A stretch of 64,000 nt of DNA from Bacteroidota bacterium (lineage in GTDB: Bacteria > Bacteroidota > Bacteroidia > Chitinophagales > Chitinophagaceae), in NCBI GenBank assembly GCA_026391455.1, contig JAPLEH010000070.1:1-64000 (forward strand). Direction: 5' to 3'. Below, piece by piece: positions 8,795-37,896 of the stretch. Numbering within the stretch: position 1 is the stretch's first letter; the number at the start of each line of letters is the position of its first letter. The translations under genes and the position numbers were made by a program. The notes under the pieces are model-generated. The model saw only the letters and a program-made list of their open reading frames with translations. It made no database searches and was not told where the DNA came from.

Positions 8795-9712
8795 TTAATC
8801 AAGCGGTGCATCCATTTGCCGGAGTATTTTACTCAGTTCATCATTGGAATAATAATCGATGATGATCTGTCCGCTGCCGTTGCGGCTGTGTTTTAGTTTT
8901 ACCCGGGTGCTGAAATGCGACGCTAATTTATCTTCTATACGCTGATATGCCGACGGAAGTTGGGTTTTTGATGATTTTTTAACAGCTCCTGTTTCTTTAT
9001 AGAGCGTGCGCACCAATTCTTCTGTTTGTCGTACGGAGAGCGCTTTATCCTTGATGGATTTAAAAATATACAGTTGCTGATCGATCGTATCCACGTTGAT
9101 CAGCGCACGGGCATGCCCCATAGAGAGTTCTCCGTTTCGCACGGCCAGTTGAATATCCGGCGGAAGTTTGAGCAGGCGAATGAAGTTGGCCACGGTGCTG
9201 CGGTCTTTGCCCATACGCTCGGCCACTTGTTCCTGCGTATAGTTCAGTTCCTCCATCATCCGTTTATAGCTGAGTGCCACCTCCATGGCATTGAGGTCTT
9301 CGCGTTGCAGGTTTTCCAGCAGGGCCAGTTCCAGCAGTTCCGCATCATTGGCCTGGCGGATATAAGCCGGAATGTCTTTCAGTCCGGCCATTTTGGAAGC
9401 CCGTAATCTTCGTTCCCCGGAGATGAGCCGGTATTTGCCATTGGCCAGTTTGGATACCGTGATGGGCTGAATGATATCATGCAATTTGATCGAATCGGCC
9501 AGTTCCTGCAGGGCGGTTTCATCAAAATCGCGCCGGGGCTGTTTGGGATTGGTTTCGATATCACCCACGGGCAGCCGGTTGATGCCGGTAGCATTTTCCA
9601 CTACCGTGGTCTTTAAACCACCACTGGTGGTTTTCAGATCAGAATCGATATTCTGCAGCAAGGAGCGGATGCCCTTGCCGAGTAGTTCTTTATTTTGTTT
9701 GGGATTAGTCAT
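8795..9712 (-). CDS. parB: ParB/Spo0J chromosome partitioning protein
   Basis: A 305-residue CTPase and DNA clamp that loads at parS sites and works with ParA in chromosome segregation. The ATG at 9712 (MTNPKQNKELLGKGI) begins the conserved N-terminal ParA-activating tail. The longer ORF upstream is translated heptad repeat and was discarded. The ParB N-domain shows NPKQPRRDFDE and GERRLRASKMAG (CTP-binding box), then a KorB-type helix-turn-helix (TQEQVAERMGKDRSTVANFIRLLKL) and LSMGHARALI. A C-terminal dimerisation domain follows. Normally parA lies directly upstream; here a four-helix-bundle gene and two repeat arrays separate them. Confidence 0.95.
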   Translation of the reverse strand: MTNPKQNKELLGKGIRSLLQNIDSDLKTTSGGLKTTVVENATGINRLPVGDIETNPKQPRRDFDETALQELADSIKLHDIIQPITVSKLANGKYRLISGERRLRASKMAGLKDIPAYIRQANDAELLELALLENLQREDLNAMEVALSYKRMMEELNYTQEQVAERMGKDRSTVANFIRLLKLPPDIQLAVRNGELSMGHARALINVDTIDQQLYIFKSIKDKALSVRQTEELVRTLYKETGAVKKSSKTQLPSAYQRIEDKLASHFSTRVKLKHSRNGSGQIIIDYYSNDELSKILRQMDAPLD

Positions 9713-9844: not shown

Positions 9845-10231
9845 TTAAATGTTTGAACCTTGAAAATTGGCTTTAGAATCCTGTTCAATTTTACGCATAA
9901 AGCCGATCAGCATTTTTTGTTCTTCTACAATATCTTTTAATAATAATTCTTTTTCTTCTTTGTTGCCAAAATTCACTGCTTGCGCAATCATAAGCTGTGT
10001 TTCGAGTTCGTAGGCAGATCCTAATGACATTTCAAGGAATCTTTTGTAATCCTTGGTGCTGTTTCTGCTGCTGCCTTCTGCAATATTGGAAACAATGGAA
10101 ACCGCCGCACGGGTGATCTGCGAACTGATACCGTATTTCTCTTCCTTTGGAAAAGAACTTACAAGTTTAAAAGAGCTAATGGCTATTTGAAATCCTTTTT
10201 GCCAAATCAATAACTTCTTAAAATTCTTCAT
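9845..10231 (-). CDS. Four-helix-bundle protein (23S rRNA IVP / TIGR02436 type)
   Basis: A 128-residue small helical protein. The family signature is visible: LIWQKGFQIAISSF near the N-terminus, FPKEEKYGISSQITRAAVSIVSNIAEGSSRNSTKDYKRFL in the middle, and SAYELETQLMIA after it. The family covers proteins encoded in 23S rRNA intervening sequences and free-standing relatives of the Avd proteins of diversity-generating retroelements. No reverse transcriptase or variable repeat is present here, and the biochemical role is unknown. Its position between parA and parB, with oppositely oriented heptad arrays on both sides, suggests insertion as a cassette. Confidence 0.85.
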   Translation of the reverse strand: MKNFKKLLIWQKGFQIAISSFKLVSSFPKEEKYGISSQITRAAVSIVSNIAEGSSRNSTKDYKRFLEMSLGSAYELETQLMIAQAVNFGNKEEKELLLKDIVEEQKMLIGFMRKIEQDSKANFQGSNI

Positions 10232-10280: not shown

Positions 10281-10341
10281 AACTTGCAGCTTGTAGCTAA
10301 AAGCTTGTAGCTTGAAGCTCGAGGCTCGCGGCTCAAAGCTC
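10281..10341 (-). repeat. RAGCYNC heptad array, right flank of cassette
   Basis: About nine heptads read on the minus strand (GAGCTTT, GAGCCGC, GAGCCTC, GAGCTTC, AAGCTAC, AAGCTTT, TAGCTAC, AAGCTGC). The first heptad overlaps the last codons and stop codon of parA. It is inverted with respect to the array at 9724-9807, and the four-helix-bundle gene lies between them. Confidence 0.85.
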
Positions 10342-11136
10342 TAATATCTTCTCATTATTCTTCATCTTCGTCATATCGTTCTTCTGCAATATTTCTTTGG
10401 CCAGGTTGAGATAATTCACGGACCCTTTGCTTTGTGCATCATATAAGATGACTGGTTTGCCGGCACTGGGTGCTTCGGCCAGTCGGGCATTGCGATGAAT
10501 GATGGTGCTGAATACCATGTCTTCAAAATGGCGGCGAACTTCACTTACCACCTGGTTGCACAGGCGGAGGCGGCCATCGTACATGGTCATCAGGATGCCT
10601 TCAATTACAAGCGCGGTATTGAGTCGGCTTTGTACAATCTTGATGGTATTGAGCAATTTGCCCAAACCTTCCAGCGCAAAGAATTCGCATTGTACCGGAA
10701 TGGCCACTGAATCGGCCGCCGTAAGTGCGTTTACGGTAATCAGTCCCAGCGAGGGGGAGCAGTCGATCACGATAAAATCATACTCTTCCCGAACGCTTTC
10801 CAGTATATTTTTCAATACCATTTCGCGGTTGGGGTAATTGATCATCTCTATTTCAGCCCCCACGAGGTCGATATGGGAGGGGATGAGGTCCAGGTTGGGA
10901 ATCTCTGTTTTCAGGATCACGTCTTTGGCCCGGGCCTGGTTCACCATACAATCATAGAGGCTCTGGGTTACATTATGCAGGTCAAATCCCACGCCGGTGG
11001 TGCTGTTGGCCTGGGGATCCCCATCCACGAGCAGGGTTTTATATTCGAGCACAGCAAAGCTGGCCGCCAGGTTTATGGCAGTAGTGGTTTTGCCTACTCC
11101 GCCCTTTTGATTTGCCACACCGATAATTCTTGCCAT
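10333..11136 (-). CDS. parA: ParA/Soj partition ATPase
   Basis: A 267-residue Walker-type ATPase that acts with ParB to segregate chromosome origins. It begins with the deviant Walker A motif ([18 protein letters not shown], with both Lys residues). It then has Walker A' ([13 protein letters not shown]) and Walker B-like [11 protein letters not shown], and the C-terminal [13 protein letters not shown] block shared with Soj proteins. There is no N-terminal helix-turn-helix, as expected for chromosomal ParA. The last two codons and the stop codon lie in heptad repeat sequence. It is divergent from the metallophosphoesterase gene. Confidence 0.96.
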
Positions 11137-31628: not shown

Positions 31629-32516
31629 ATGCTCAGAAACGGAATATTCATCAGTTATGCAGAGCCTGATCTGAAATGGGTAACCACTTTGCAAACATTT
31701 CTTCGCCCCTATACCAGAGACGAAAAAATGGAAGTGATTGGGCCCGGAGCAATTCAGGCTGGCCTGAGCCGGGAGCAACAAGTGGTAGCTAAGTTGCAGC
31801 AATGCCGCGTGGTGATCTTGCTGGTTTCGCCGGAATATTTGGCTAACGACGATATCATAAAAAAGGATTTGCCGGCTATTATAAAGGAACAGCAAACGGG
31901 CGAACTGATCGTATTCCCGATTGCAGTCAGCCATTCCGCCTACTCCATGGTGGGCATCAATCAATTTCCTTCGCCACATGATCTTGACCAGCCACTCGAC
32001 GTGATGGATAAACCGGAAAGGCAAAAAGTACTTTTACAGATCACGAACCGTATCGTGAATGCGATGGGCATTAATGCATTGGGGAATATGTTCAAGATCA
32101 TTGATGATTTTGTACCCAGGCAACAGGCATTTATAGAAGACAGAGAACCGGATCCGGTGCCACCGGTATTTTCGGCCATTGCCAAACAGGAGGAGGAAAA
32201 GATTGAATTGAAAAACAATGGCAATTATGTATTTGAAACGATTACAGCTGCTGAATTCGATTCGCTTGACAAAGACTCCAAAATACTGATACGGACCTAT
32301 GAGACTACCATGACTTATTTATTTGAACGATGGGTGGAATTGCAGCCACAGAGTTATTCAAAGGATCCACAGGTACGGCAGGATGCGAGAGATGAAATGA
32401 GTGTATTACGGAGAGATCTTTGCCAGCAGCTTAATGCCATTTTAGATCTGCTCCACAGAATGCATAAATACCTGGATGATCATTATCACCATGTACGGCA
32501 TATTTGTTCGATATAA
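31629..32516 (+). CDS. TIR-domain protein with C-terminal helical domain
   Basis: A 295-residue cytoplasmic protein with no signal peptide. Residues 5-145 are a TIR_2-type domain: GIFISYAEPDLKW at the start, RVVILLVSPEYLAND in the core strand, and GELIVFPIAV after it. The positions usually occupied by the W-D-D motif read EVIGPG, and the catalytic Glu position has Asp80 (IIKKDLPAI), so NAD hydrolysis is doubtful. Residues 200-295 are helical, ending in a His-rich segment (HKYLDDHYHHVRHIC). No partner gene is obvious. A 6-base stem AACCTG / CAGGTT lies at 31580-31599, upstream. Confidence 0.8.
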   Translation: MLRNGIFISYAEPDLKWVTTLQTFLRPYTRDEKMEVIGPGAIQAGLSREQQVVAKLQQCRVVILLVSPEYLANDDIIKKDLPAIIKEQQTGELIVFPIAVSHSAYSMVGINQFPSPHDLDQPLDVMDKPERQKVLLQITNRIVNAMGINALGNMFKIIDDFVPRQQAFIEDREPDPVPPVFSAIAKQEEEKIELKNNGNYVFETITAAEFDSLDKDSKILIRTYETTMTYLFERWVELQPQSYSKDPQVRQDARDEMSVLRRDLCQQLNAILDLLHRMHKYLDDHYHHVRHICSI

Positions 32517-33632: not shown

Positions 33633-34103
33633 TCATATTTTTCGGTAGCGGGTGCCGATATAATCAACAAAATCAGGGGTGATACCCAATTGCCTTAAAA
33701 TTGTTTGTATTTGTGCGCGGTGATGAATGGAGTGATAATTAAGTTGCAGTGCAATATCAGCCGGTGTGGCGGCATAGGGACTGCCATCAAAGCCAATGAA
33801 TGTTACTTCAGTATTGAGTTCATCTTCCGTTTTAGACTGAATATACGTTATCCATAGTGAAAGGCTGTCTGTCCACTTGGTTATAAGTTCCTCCCATTTG
33901 TAAAGGGGTAACCACCAATCCATTTCAGTTGCTTTGGGATCCTGCACTATACGTGCCATCCATTTGTACTGGCAATTTATGAGATGGCTCAGCAGGCGAA
34001 TGATCTCTTCATTGCCTGGGACGTCTTTAATTTTTTCTATTATCTGCCGGTTAGCCTTGTCGTTGAACTGAAATGTATCTATAAGGTATTGTGCTAACTG
34101 CAT
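33633..34103 (-). CDS. DinB family protein
   Basis: A 156-residue four-helix DinB/YfiT-like protein. The metal-binding histidine pattern is present: His in LLSHLINCQYKW and the pair in NYHSIHHRAQI. Family members are thiol transferases or bacillithiol/mycothiol-dependent enzymes, or are uncharacterised. It lies downstream of the GCS2 ligase gene on the same strand, 97 bases away, and could be expressed with it. Confidence 0.82.
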   Translation of the reverse strand: MQLAQYLIDTFQFNDKANRQIIEKIKDVPGNEEIIRLLSHLINCQYKWMARIVQDPKATEMDWWLPLYKWEELITKWTDSLSLWITYIQSKTEDELNTEVTFIGFDGSPYAATPADIALQLNYHSIHHRAQIQTILRQLGITPDFVDYIGTRYRKI

Positions 34104-34200: not shown

Positions 34201-35310
34201 TTATATTCCTGCCAGATATTGTTGCTGAATATATTTCGCCACGTCTGTCAGGTTTTTACTTTCTTCAAAAATCGCCAGTTGACGGTCGGCACCGGTACCG
34301 TTTTCCAGCATTTTGTGTACATACGCAATGCGGTGACGGCTGCCGAGATGATCCAGTACAGGATCGAGGAAATCCAGCAGTTCATAAATAAGCGCTCGGG
34401 TATTCACTTCTTCTTCTTTTCCAAAGTCGATGAGGTAGCCATCCACACCATAACGGCTGGCCCGCCATTTATTTTCGTTTAAGAGTGCCCTTGAGTACTG
34501 AATAAAGTTCAGGTTCTTCGACCGCAGCATATAGATACGGGCGCATATGGCCTGAAACAGTGCTGCGATCGTGATGGTCTCATCCACCGTGAGGGGAATA
34601 TCGCATACCCTGAATTCAACGGTATTGAAGAAGGGGTGTACCCGCAGATCCCACCAGATCTTTTTGGCATTGTCGATACAATTAGTTTTGATCAGCAGCT
34701 TTACATAATTGTCATATGCTTCAATGCTGTCGAAAGCATCTGGAATACCGGTACGCGGAAACTTATCGAATACTTTCGTGCGAAACGATTTGTAACCGGT
34801 TTTTCTGCCTTCCCAGAACGGGGAGTTCGTACTGAGCGCAAATACGTGGGGGAGAAAATAACGGGTACTGTTGGCAATATGGTTGGCCATTTCCCGGTTT
34901 TCCATACCTACATGCACGTGTAATCCAAAAATAAGATTACTTCTGGCAGCTTCCTGCAGTTCGTTTACAATCTCATTGTACCGAACGTGTTCGGTAATAA
35001 GCTGGCTTTCCCAATGGCTGAAGGGATGGGTGCCGGATGCACCCATGGCAAAGCCGAGGCTGTCGGCAATACCTCCGATGGTTTTACGGAGCGTGGCTAC
35101 ATCCAGATAGGCCTCGTCTACGTCTGCGCAAATATCGGTGCCTACTTCCACCACGGCCTGGTGCATTTCCGCTTTTACTTTATCCTTAATCACTTTTTGC
35201 CCTTCCTGCACGATCTTTTGCTGATGGCTTTTGAGTTCGTAGGTGGCAGGGTCCAGTACCATGTACTCTTCTTCCACGCCGAGGGTAAAGCTTTTGTAGT
35301 TTAAATTCAT
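34201..35310 (-). CDS. Carboxylate-amine ligase (GCS2 / YbdK type)
   Basis: A 369-residue ATP-dependent ligase of the glutamate-cysteine ligase 2 family. The start FTLGVEEEYMVLDP holds the metal-binding Glu cluster. HVHVGMENRE, THPFSHWESQLITEH and the later WWDLRVHPFFNTVEFRVCD segment with the E-x-R motif are family hallmarks. It joins a carboxylate to an amine via an acyl phosphate; the YbdK-type substrate is not known. It is the last gene of a tight operon, 5 bases after the Uma2 gene, with an ATP-grasp gene upstream. Confidence 0.88.
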   Translation of the reverse strand: MNLNYKSFTLGVEEEYMVLDPATYELKSHQQKIVQEGQKVIKDKVKAEMHQAVVEVGTDICADVDEAYLDVATLRKTIGGIADSLGFAMGASGTHPFSHWESQLITEHVRYNEIVNELQEAARSNLIFGLHVHVGMENREMANHIANSTRYFLPHVFALSTNSPFWEGRKTGYKSFRTKVFDKFPRTGIPDAFDSIEAYDNYVKLLIKTNCIDNAKKIWWDLRVHPFFNTVEFRVCDIPLTVDETITIAALFQAICARIYMLRSKNLNFIQYSRALLNENKWRASRYGVDGYLIDFGKEEEVNTRALIYELLDFLDPVLDHLGSRHRIAYVHKMLENGTGADRQLAIFEESKNLTDVAKYIQQQYLAGI

Positions 35311-35315
35311 ACGAT

Positions 35316-35939
35316 TCAGTTATTGAATATTTCTGTGAGATGAATAGCAAGGCCCGGTATTGCGGTACTTTGGAGCGTATCTCCAGTGGCATACATTTTC
35401 AGGCCTTCCAGTTTTCCTTGTTCGGTCAATAGAAAAACGACGAGATTTTCTTCAGCGGGGTTGATGATCCAGTATTCCTTTACACCGGCTTCTTCATATA
35501 ATTCATGTTTTAGCTTGATCTCTTTTCTGGAGTTGCCAGGAGAAAGGATTTCAACAACCAGATCGGGAGCACCGCAGCAACCCCGTTCATCAATCTTTGT
35601 GGGATCGCAGATAACGCAAAGATCTGGTTGCACCACCGTGTTTACTTCGGTATCCTTACGTCTGTTTTTTACCGGCAGTCTTACATCAAAATGGGCTGCA
35701 AATACCTGACAGGCCCTGCCCTTTAATTGTTGTGTTGTTGCAACCAGTAAATTTCTGGATACAGCCTGATGCTTAGTACCTGGCGCAGCCAGTTTGTAAA
35801 TTCGCCCGCGGAATAACTCCAGGCTTTCTTCAAACTTCCATTGCAGGTAATCGGCATAGGTGTATTGAATGGAAGGATCGGGTTCTTCCACCACGCTGAA
35901 CTTATCTTCCTCACTGTCGTAAATGGTCAGTTTGCTCAT
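35316..35939 (-). CDS. Uma2 family (DUF820) endonuclease-like protein
   Basis: A 207-residue PD-(D/E)XK-fold protein. The family pattern is visible: QYTYADYLQW, LFRGRIYKLAAPGTKHQAVSRNLL, then VQPDLCVI, GAPDLVVEILSPGNSRKEIKLKHELYEEAGVKEYWII. The catalytic-type Asp, Glu and Lys-containing segments (PDLVVEILSP, K-x-K) are kept. Uma2 proteins are abundant in cyanobacteria and Bacteroidota; their biological role is unclear. The start overlaps the ATP-grasp stop by 4 bases (ATGA), which points to translational coupling. Confidence 0.87.
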   Translation of the reverse strand: MSKLTIYDSEEDKFSVVEEPDPSIQYTYADYLQWKFEESLELFRGRIYKLAAPGTKHQAVSRNLLVATTQQLKGRACQVFAAHFDVRLPVKNRRKDTEVNTVVQPDLCVICDPTKIDERGCCGAPDLVVEILSPGNSRKEIKLKHELYEEAGVKEYWIINPAEENLVVFLLTEQGKLEGLKMYATGDTLQSTAIPGLAIHLTEIFNN

Positions 35940-36892
35940 CCGATCAGCGGGCTTTTGGTTGAACTCCTTCTTACATATTCACCCCAGGTAAGGTTGTCTG
36001 CGCCTTCTTTATTTTCCAATGCTTTTTCAATGGCATAATTGGCTGCCGTTTCCACTACCCATTCAAAATTCTCATCGCCCACACTGGCCCGGTCGGCATC
36101 TGGGGCGGGGTTGCAGAAGTCAATGGCATAAGGTACACCATCGCGAACTGCAAGCTCTACTGTATTAAAATCGTAACCAAGATATTTATTGATGCGGAGT
36201 ACGATATCGGTCATTTGCTGGAGGCGTTCAGCAGAGGGTTTAAAATCGGCCACATAACGAAGATGATGCGGGTTGCGGGGTTCATACGACATGATGCGCA
36301 CATATTTTCCGCCGATACAATAGCAGCGATAATATTCAGTGAATACAATCTCTTCCTGGAGCAGCATTACCAATTGGCCGGTTTCAGCATGTTTGGTAAA
36401 AAAGTCTTCGGCATCGGTAAGTTTATATACGTGTTTCCATCCACCACCGGCAAAAGGCTTCATGTATGCGGGAAAGCCTACATAGCTAAAGATCGAATCC
36501 CAATCAAGCGGGTAGGCCAGGTTGCTGAAGGAATCGGCGGATGTATCATCGGGCAGATCGCGGGAGGGGATGATAGCGGTTTTTGGCACCGGCACATCCA
36601 CTTTTGTCATCAGGCAGTTGTTGAAATATTTATCATCTGCGCTCCACCAGAAGGGGTTGTTGATAACGGCAGTACCGGTTACGGCCGCATTTTTGAGCCA
36701 GGTGCGGTAGAAGGGTACATCCTGGGATATACGGTCGATGATTACGGCGTAGCCACTGCCCACACCCTGCATCGCTTTGTCTATACGAACGGGTTCGGCA
36801 ACGATACCCGGCACATTTTTACTATTTACCCTGGCTACAAAAGCTTCCGGGAAAGAACGTTCTTTCCCATGGAGAATTCCGATTTTCTTCAT
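35936..36892 (-). CDS. ATP-grasp domain protein
   Basis: A 318-residue ATP-grasp enzyme. The N-terminal pre-ATP-grasp domain starts KKIGILHGKERSFPEAFV. The core has PAYMKPFAGGGWKHVYKL (lysine and glycine-rich loop), LLQEEIVFTEYYRCYCIGG, and NTVELAVRDGVPYAIDFCNPAPD with the metal-binding residues near the end. It probably makes an amide or ester bond through an acyl phosphate; substrates are unknown. It is first in the operon with Uma2 and GCS2 genes and divergent from an esterase gene 182 bases away. Confidence 0.82.
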   Translation of the reverse strand: MKKIGILHGKERSFPEAFVARVNSKNVPGIVAEPVRIDKAMQGVGSGYAVIIDRISQDVPFYRTWLKNAAVTGTAVINNPFWWSADDKYFNNCLMTKVDVPVPKTAIIPSRDLPDDTSADSFSNLAYPLDWDSIFSYVGFPAYMKPFAGGGWKHVYKLTDAEDFFTKHAETGQLVMLLQEEIVFTEYYRCYCIGGKYVRIMSYEPRNPHHLRYVADFKPSAERLQQMTDIVLRINKYLGYDFNTVELAVRDGVPYAIDFCNPAPDADRASVGDENFEWVVETAANYAIEKALENKEGADNLTWGEYVRRSSTKSPLIG

Positions 36893-37074
36893 AAACGTGG
36901 TTTAAATGTTGATTGAATGAGCGCCAATTCAGATGTAGTGGTTTACCCCGGACGGCTACCATCAAATTTATTTTTTCATCATCAAATTAACAAATTAACC
37001 GGACGTATTCTGCAATACACTCAAATAATACCCGTAAAAAGGATATTTATTATGAAATCGTTACTTTTGAAGCC

Positions 37075-37896
37075 ATGCAATTGGCGAAAGTACCCGGCAT
37101 TATGGTCGAACAGCACGTGATCGATTCCGTCTGTTTAGCAAGAGAAGTGAAAGTGGATTTCTATATTCCACAATCCGTAACTGATTTCTCACAATCGAGT
37201 TTGCTGCTGATTAATGACGGGCAGGATCTCGTCAAAATGGATTTTGCCGCCATTCTCGAAAAGTTTTACGAAGAAAATATCAATGCGGTTCCTCTGGTTT
37301 GCGTGGGCATGCATTGTGGCCCCGAACGAAAAATGGAATATGGCATTGCCGGCCAGCCCGATTACCTTGGCCGTGGTGCCCGGGCGGCGGACTATACCGA
37401 TTTTGTGGCGGATGAATTAATGCCCTTTATCCGAAAACAACTATCTGCCCCATCTTTCCGGGAAAAAGCGTTTGCTGGCTTCTCCCTCGGCGGTCTGATG
37501 GCCCTCGACATCGTTTGGAATTACCCCGCACATTTTACTAAAGTGGGAGTGTTTTCCGGTTCCCTTTGGTGGCGGAGTATCGATCAGGATGATGAAGCCT
37601 ATGACGATAACCTGCACCGCCTCATCCATCAGCAGATCCGCAATGGGCAGTATGCTCCCTGGCTCAAATTTTTCTTTCAGTGCGGCAATATGGACGAGAC
37701 CAATGACCGTAATAAGAACGGCATCATTGATTCGATCGATGACACGCTTGATCTCATTACAGAACTTACAGAAAAAGGATATGACCGGGATCGGGATATT
37801 AAATACCTCGAACTTGCCGACGGCAAACACGATGTACCTACCTGGGCCCGCTCTTTTCCTGCTTTCTTAAAATGGGGGTGGGGAAATAAAATCTGA
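37075..37896 (+). CDS. Putative esterase (alpha/beta hydrolase, esterase D type)
   Basis: A 273-residue cytoplasmic protein without a signal peptide. It has LLLINDGQDLVKMDF, PLVCVGMHCGPERKMEYGI, then the nucleophile elbow AGFSLGGLMAL, and YLELADGKHDVPTWARSFPAFLKWGW with the catalytic His in GKHD. This fits the PF00756 putative-esterase family. The frame is open for some distance upstream of the first ATG at 37075, so a non-ATG start nearer 37021 is possible. It is divergent from the ATP-grasp operon, and similar esterases are often neighbours of ATP-grasp/GCS2 pairs, so a shared pathway is likely but unproven. Confidence 0.82.
   Translation: MQLAKVPGIMVEQHVIDSVCLAREVKVDFYIPQSVTDFSQSSLLLINDGQDLVKMDFAAILEKFYEENINAVPLVCVGMHCGPERKMEYGIAGQPDYLGRGARAADYTDFVADELMPFIRKQLSAPSFREKAFAGFSLGGLMALDIVWNYPAHFTKVGVFSGSLWWRSIDQDDEAYDDNLHRLIHQQIRNGQYAPWLKFFFQCGNMDETNDRNKNGIIDSIDDTLDLITELTEKGYDRDRDIKYLELADGKHDVPTWARSFPAFLKWGWGNKI

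Follow-up and report, generated by a model that had tools for sequence, protein, structure and literature searches.

We propose that a locus in a Chitinophagaceae genome, at positions 34201–37896 of a 64,000-nucleotide stretch of contig JAPLEH010000070.1 (the window), is a conserved amidoligase module, widespread in its phylum, that carries a non-essential guest gene, an interpretation that we regard as likely. The guest is a gene of the Uma2 family of putative nucleases; it lies in the spacer between genes for an ATP-grasp ligase and a GCS2 carboxylate-amine ligase and is most likely outside the ligase pathway. The genome, 5.5 Mb in 74 contigs, is one of many in which the spacer can be compared: Uma2 holds a constant position in it and is optional, one clear decayed relic is present, different guests occur within one genus and the trees of guest and host conflict in part. 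Since Uma2 is scattered among hosts, the two trees agree in part and an unrelated gene of the 23S-IVP family (IVP) fills the same spacer elsewhere, the ATP-grasp/GCS2 spacer behaves as a guest slot. The features of the locus are as follows.

34201 to 35310, minus strand: GCS2 / YbdK-type carboxylate-amine ligase, 369 aa, core gene (PF04107, PRK13515, homology to YbdK 1r8g)
35316 to 35939, minus strand: Uma2-family putative nuclease, 207 aa, optional guest between ATP-grasp and GCS2 (PF05685, site residues, PDC-S03)
35936 to 35939, minus strand: ATGA overlap of the Uma2 start with the ATP-grasp stop (from the sequence)
35936 to 36892, minus strand: RimK-like ATP-grasp ligase, 318 aa, core gene (AlphaFold2 model, RimK fold)
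36893 to 37074, no strand: divergent intergenic region, 182 bp, presumably holding both promoters (spacing, divergent esterase in relatives)
37075 to 37896, plus strand: alpha/beta-fold esterase, 273 aa, core gene, divergent (PF00756, conserved divergent neighbour)

The four genes lie where an earlier annotation of the bare DNA (the sequence-only reading) had placed them, with family profiles and a model of the ATP-grasp protein in agreement, and the ATGA overlap that it described is real. Its suggestion that Uma2 may be part of the system is not supported. In 99 adjacent ATP-grasp/GCS2 pairs, the spacer measures 5–239 bp in 89, none with Uma2, 490 bp in two and 628–811 bp in eight; all eight of the longest contain Uma2, and both of 490 bp (in genomes G129 and G130) contain an IVP gene (PF05635). 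As points that would tell against it, that reading had named relatives with the two ligase genes adjacent without Uma2 and with no linkage to the esterase; the former abound, while the esterase link holds (87 of 103 genomes). Overall, its interpretation is partly supported.

The comparison was extended to 157 distinct loci. Of these, 74 were from the first survey, made up of its highest-scoring loci and 60 more fetched so that Uma2-bearing and unusual cases were covered; a further 80, of which 11 have Uma2, were those most similar to the window in a ranked list, and three were found via a Uma2 search. G322 entered as two loci; L110, L111, L112, L115 and L118 were dropped as repeats of G-numbered genomes, and L113, L116, L117 and L179 (repeats of G100, G077, G043 and G044) were never added. 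As this is a non-random sample, the least biased rate for Uma2 remains 8 of 99. Uma2 occupies 22 of the 157 spacers, IVP five (G129, G130, G297, G318 and G387, the last also confirmed by Pfam) and a 552-codon frame one; the other 129 are guest-free and at most 255 bp long. The long frame fills the ATP-grasp/GCS2 spacer of locus L261 (G333). Within the window's own genus, the spacer holds IVP in G387 and G318 and Uma2 in the window genome (G000), and is empty in G155, G254 and G289. On the 157-tip host tree, G387, G000 and G318 are nearest to one another, in a group with a support of 91 in the Shimodaira–Hasegawa-like approximate likelihood-ratio test (SH-aLRT).

The core around this spacer is real, old and conserved. 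Among 147 genomes of the family, searched for homologues at E 1e-10, ATP-grasp was present in 103, GCS2 in 109 and the esterase in 99. GCS2 adjoins ATP-grasp on the same contig and strand in 99 of the 103 genomes with ATP-grasp, the divergent esterase is at most 1.7 kb from ATP-grasp in 87 and both are its neighbours in 86; the link between the ligase pair and the esterase, also claimed in the sequence-only reading, is thus borne out, and more widely than the single locus could show. Of the remaining 16 genomes, one (G103) has the esterase on the same contig, 25 kb away, and 15 have none on that contig: eight carry it elsewhere and in seven none was found. ATP-grasp was present in 38 of 247 sampled class genomes (at E 1e-40), 34 of these lying outside the family, and in 72 of 198 genomes sampled from the phylum. 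In the 27 extra-family loci fetched from these 34, neighbour counts, which are lower bounds with flanks of 1.5 kb, were 23 for GCS2, 21 for a second alpha/beta hydrolase upstream, 17 for the esterase and 15 for a GATase-like gene; in L294 and L296, the GATase-like gene follows ATP-grasp and GCS2 is absent. The second hydrolase scores just above the Pfam esterase cut-off and the GATase-like gene above that of PF00117, and a third gene bears a weak likeness to glutathionylspermidine synthase, under the Pfam cut-off. Because the same arrangement recurs across genera, it does not reflect chance, and because relatives in the class often have a further hydrolase along with a GATase-like gene, the window carries a shorter version of a module that is found widely. 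A GATase-like homologue (52%) lies on another contig of the window genome.

How did Uma2 come to occupy some of these spacers? Host trees were built from ATP-grasp and GCS2 after removal of G113 and G014 (34% identical ATP-grasp). Uma2 requires 13 changes for 16 tips on an 83-tip host tree, eight of them forced by starred branches, and 18 changes for 22 tips on the 157-tip tree. On an 84-row Uma2 tree, the 16 in-slot genes make up one side of a single branch (support 82/69; 81% of 200 bootstrap trees), and shuffled in-slot labels need 14.9 changes. The hosts of Uma2 are therefore hardly clustered, although their Uma2 genes are. Over the 22 Uma2-bearing loci, quartets of the Uma2 and host trees agree at 0.69 (mean 0.33 and maximum 0.47 in 300 shuffles), and in the approximately unbiased test each tree is rejected by the data behind the other (p 1.4e-4 and 5.6e-13). 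The trees conflict most plainly for G322b: its Uma2 resembles those of G215 and G294 (76–78%) more than that of G347 (71%), yet G347 has the ATP-grasp closest to its own (96%). We read this as residence of Uma2 with losses, together with apparent transfer into the same place. G322 has two copies of the module (L195 and L200), one with Uma2 and one without; 3% contamination is listed for this genome, and a mixture is possible.

Loss has left some trace. We searched the 129 guest-free spacers, excluding those with Uma2, those with IVP and that of G333, with Uma2 and IVP profiles. The spacer of G086, which sits inside a Uma2-bearing clade, retains a decayed Uma2 end that scores 18.4 bits, whereas 2580 shuffled spacers reach no more than 7.0; an earlier search of 66 spacers had found it at 16.8 bits. 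The spacer of G309 contains the relic of an IVP-type-II end (49.1 bits, compared with at most 6.7 when shuffled), and the IVP-type-I profile gave no score above shuffles over the 129 spacers (best 3.1, compared with 6.8). The spacers with IVP showed no trace of Uma2. Among the 22 in-slot Uma2 genes, that of G074 is interrupted by a stop codon (residue 181 of 207); the remaining 21 run without a stop from their likely start. The idea that every guest-free spacer would show visible loss of Uma2 was discarded, with one clear relic (G086) and a weak motif in G142 and G058.

Several observations weigh against the guest interpretation. On the 83-tip tree, Uma2-bearing tips show hardly any clustering: the 13 changes compare with a shuffled mean of 14.8, and 54 of 500 shuffles are as low. 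A single gain of Uma2 would cost 43 losses on the 157-tip tree, which is many, and the distances on the Uma2 and host trees correlate weakly (r 0.27). The support for monophyly of the in-slot genes is moderate (82/69), with long rows for G126 and L179; about 205 alignment columns underlie the Uma2 trees, and many of the host genomes were assembled from metagenomes. G086 alone passes the profile test for a Uma2 relic. For G142 and G058, the evidence is a short motif at the gene end (three seen including G086, 0.09 expected), a looser version of which did no better than shuffles (six seen; mean 2.2, maximum 7); for G059, it is judgement by eye. Moreover, the in-slot gene is well kept under purifying selection, a pattern that an operon accessory would show as well.

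In one such reading, Uma2 serves the amidoligase system as an accessory confined to certain lineages, for example as a regulator or a product-activated nuclease, with the operon serving as a defence or stress system there. We consider this improbable. It would fit the tight packing in the window, where the start of Uma2 overlaps the stop of ATP-grasp by 4 nt (a spacing that recurs in G074, as GTGA) and Uma2 ends 5 bp before GCS2; spacing and shared strand suggest that ATP-grasp, Uma2 and GCS2 are co-transcribed. It would also fit the match of Uma2 to the PADLOC candidate defence family PDC-S03 (E 1.1e-49), the single in-slot clade and the constraint on the gene. Three unsaturated Uma2 pairs give dN/dS (nonsynonymous over synonymous divergence) of about 0.13–0.17 (0.043/0.334, 0.201/1.383 and 0.210/1.208). 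However, Uma2 accompanies few pairs (8 of 99), scattered over the host tree, an unrelated IVP gene takes its place in close relatives, its dN is about 2–9 times that of the neighbouring genes in the compared pairs and at E 0.01 the window ATP-grasp and GCS2 proteins have no match among the PADLOC models.

The putative active site is intact. Residues H57, P105-D106, E130 and K144, assigned by eye, are invariant in seven aligned in-slot copies and match the H-PD-EXX-K pattern given for Uma2/COG4636 putative nucleases in a study of that family (Feder and Bujnicki, PMC551604). The protein scores 106.3 bits against PF05685 (cut-off 27) and matches PDB 9y1l at E 2.9e-30. These features would suit a working gene with an intact site, under purifying selection and with its own nuclease function, whether selfish or defensive.

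If Uma2 cuts DNA, could it be a free-standing homing-type endonuclease that cleaves guest-free junctions and is copied in during repair? The intact site would allow this, as would conflicts such as that of G322b and the weak clustering on the host tree, and the gene does occupy the same site in related genomes while guest-free alleles occur in others. With the seven in-slot proteins as query, 84,980 genomes yielded at least 590 matching stretches, 571 of them encoding relatives, and the best 80 were analysed: the top 11 (57–70% identical) all lie in the ATP-grasp/GCS2 spacer, one further match does (L179, 48%) and the remaining 68 lie elsewhere. Although such a query favours in-slot matches, the break after rank 11 is sharp. 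Nevertheless, we find a homing endonuclease unlikely, as Uma2 and host quartets agree far above chance and inspection by eye revealed no common sequence in the non-coding DNA of the junctions. Furthermore, when the ATP-grasp and GCS2 genes of G000 were compared in 160-nt steps with those of Uma2-bearing and Uma2-free relatives, no stretch was donor-like or notably nearer to a Uma2-bearing relative, which leaves a recombination tract carrying Uma2 into this genome unsupported. Least probable is that Uma2 landed here at random and that its presence is meaningless: although the Feder and Bujnicki study calls insertion of Uma2/COG4636 'virtually random' and the family selfish (PMC551604), 12 of the best 80 relatives, including the top 11, share the ATP-grasp neighbour and one operon slot, they fall on one branch and a profile of in-slot Uma2 matched just the eight in-slot genes among 2685 open reading frames (ORFs) of 61 loci, so that this reading of the clade is already hard to hold. 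Other Uma2 groups among the best 80 also retain neighbours, in sets of three to six loci.

The second guest of the slot has a structure of its own. Complementary arms flank the IVP gene in three of four testable in-slot cases (G130 fails; G129 falls outside the testable set). Around Uma2 guests, inverted-repeat arms were found in none of four testable cases (11 tried), so the IVP-type structure does not extend to Uma2. Across the genus, arms (z at least 3, reached in 0 of 40 shuffles) surround 25 of 39 tested IVP genes, compared with one of 48 control ORFs, for which the longest frames in those loci were taken whether or not they are genes. The window genome has 12 IVP matches, 11 of them over the family cut-off, with arms in eight or seven of the 12, depending on the start codon taken. 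One of these genes lies in the window itself at 9845–10231 (minus strand), with strong inverted-repeat arms, between ParB- and ParA-family genes at 8795–9712 and 10333–11136. Co-directional neighbours do little to mark IVP genes, being present on both sides of 22 of 39 (both neighbours found in 35), compared with 21 of 41 window genes. Because IVP genes are common in the family (111 of 147 genomes), finding them in one particular spacer is less remarkable than finding Uma2 there.

An IVP gene between inverted-repeat arms is also the form of the intervening sequences (IVSs) of 23S rRNA that contain an S23p/IVP gene and, in Coxiella, undergo cleavage by RNase III (PMC4990558). Those lie in rRNA, whereas the IVP guests described here lie in protein-gene spacers. 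It is conceivable, if rather unlikely, that two kinds of selfish spacer gene, with no relation to each other, use the junction as a genuine exchange site: Uma2 would enter by cutting guest-free junctions, and IVP would belong to IVS-like stem-loop elements scattered in protein-gene spacers of the genus (as between parA and parB in the window), possibly excised from mRNA by RNase III as from 23S rRNA.

The guest interpretation, which we prefer, can be set out in a few steps. For the substrates and expression of the module, the nuclease activity of Uma2 and the mode of its movement, we infer the following. The YbdK-type GCS2 protein would join a carboxylate to an amine at the expense of ATP, forming an amide bond on a small peptide, an amino acid or a protein end, and the RimK-like ATP-grasp protein would likewise use ATP to form an amide bond, adding a residue to a peptide-like acceptor. 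The divergent esterase may hydrolyze an ester or acyl link in the substrate or product. The short spacer, as observed, tolerates insertions: within the window's family it holds a gene of one Uma2 clade in some lineages, an IVP four-helix gene in a few and no gene in most. Uma2 would stand outside the ligase chemistry, with the operon serving its expression (in the window through the ATGA overlap), and would be lost and at times regained from relatives in the same place, probably by recombination via the conserved flanking genes.

This core chemistry is suggested by fold and family. GCS2 scores 195 bits against PF04107 (cut-off 21), 506.7 bits against NCBIfam PRK13515 (cut-off 371) and 287.9 bits against TIGR02050 (cut-off 176.4), which places it among YbdK-type ligases by curated cut-offs; its solved relative is YbdK (1r8g, E 1.5e-47), with homology across residues 7–341. 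It differs from YbdK-type ligases in that the window-type protein is usually partnered by a RimK-like ATP-grasp. The esterase scores 79.7 bits against PF00756 (cut-off 22). The ATP-grasp protein matched no Pfam family at E 0.01, its profile matched no PDB sequence at E 0.01 and it scores 26.4 bits against TIGR00768 (rimK_fam), under the cut-off of 143.4. Its confident AlphaFold2 model (predicted local distance difference test, pLDDT, 90.3) shares the ATP-grasp fold of RimK, the best structural match being RimK 4iwx (VIA-align Z 21.6, 2.8 Å, 264 residues), followed by ArgX/LysX and then the graspetide ligase PsnB. With Z about 19–22 over 239–264 residues, the likeness to these ligases is one of fold, whereas identity to them is about 10–18%; the protein thus probably works like RimK but is not assigned to the RimK family.

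Iyer et al. in 2009 reportedly placed ATP-grasp genes beside GCS2 genes, with other enzymes, in clusters predicted to make peptide-like metabolites or to modify proteins, and the conserved neighbourhood of the two genes in 99 of 103 genomes agrees with an amidoligase cluster of that kind. A search of titles and abstract openings for the cluster, Uma2 and IVP found no description of this layout or slot.

The distinction between module and guest has consequences for experiments. Removal of a misleading partner, Uma2, from a widely conserved ligase module leaves a clean gene set for tests of its product. The Uma2 family, abundant in some genomes, gains a case in which position, loss and exchange can be traced, so that its selfish or host-serving nature becomes testable. 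In addition, IVP genes within inverted-repeat arms in ordinary operons would extend intervening sequences beyond rRNA.

Finally, we note some features of the locus and its surroundings. Many guest-free spacers contain stable hairpins, with z below −3 in 19 of 79 spacers of at least 50 nt (for example, L088 in G021 and L203 in G161), relative to shuffles that preserve base composition only; that of G021 reaches −60.9 kcal/mol in 113 nt. A DinB-family gene at 33633–34103 (minus strand) follows GCS2 immediately, in the same orientation. It was rejected as a fifth member, as the printed neighbourhoods of 60 other loci contain no ORF labelled DinB. A gene for a TIR-domain protein (PF13676) at 31629–32516 (plus strand) gives a weak match to Thoeris ThsB (29.3 bits, E 1.2e-7). 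In 18 of the 27 class-level loci (including L274, L275 and L288), the ATP-grasp protein has a C-terminal tail of at least 25 residues, mostly rich in Lys, Ala and Pro; such tails occur in three genomes of the family and not in the window. In three class-level loci the tails contain repeated RGRP motifs, which resemble AT-hooks.

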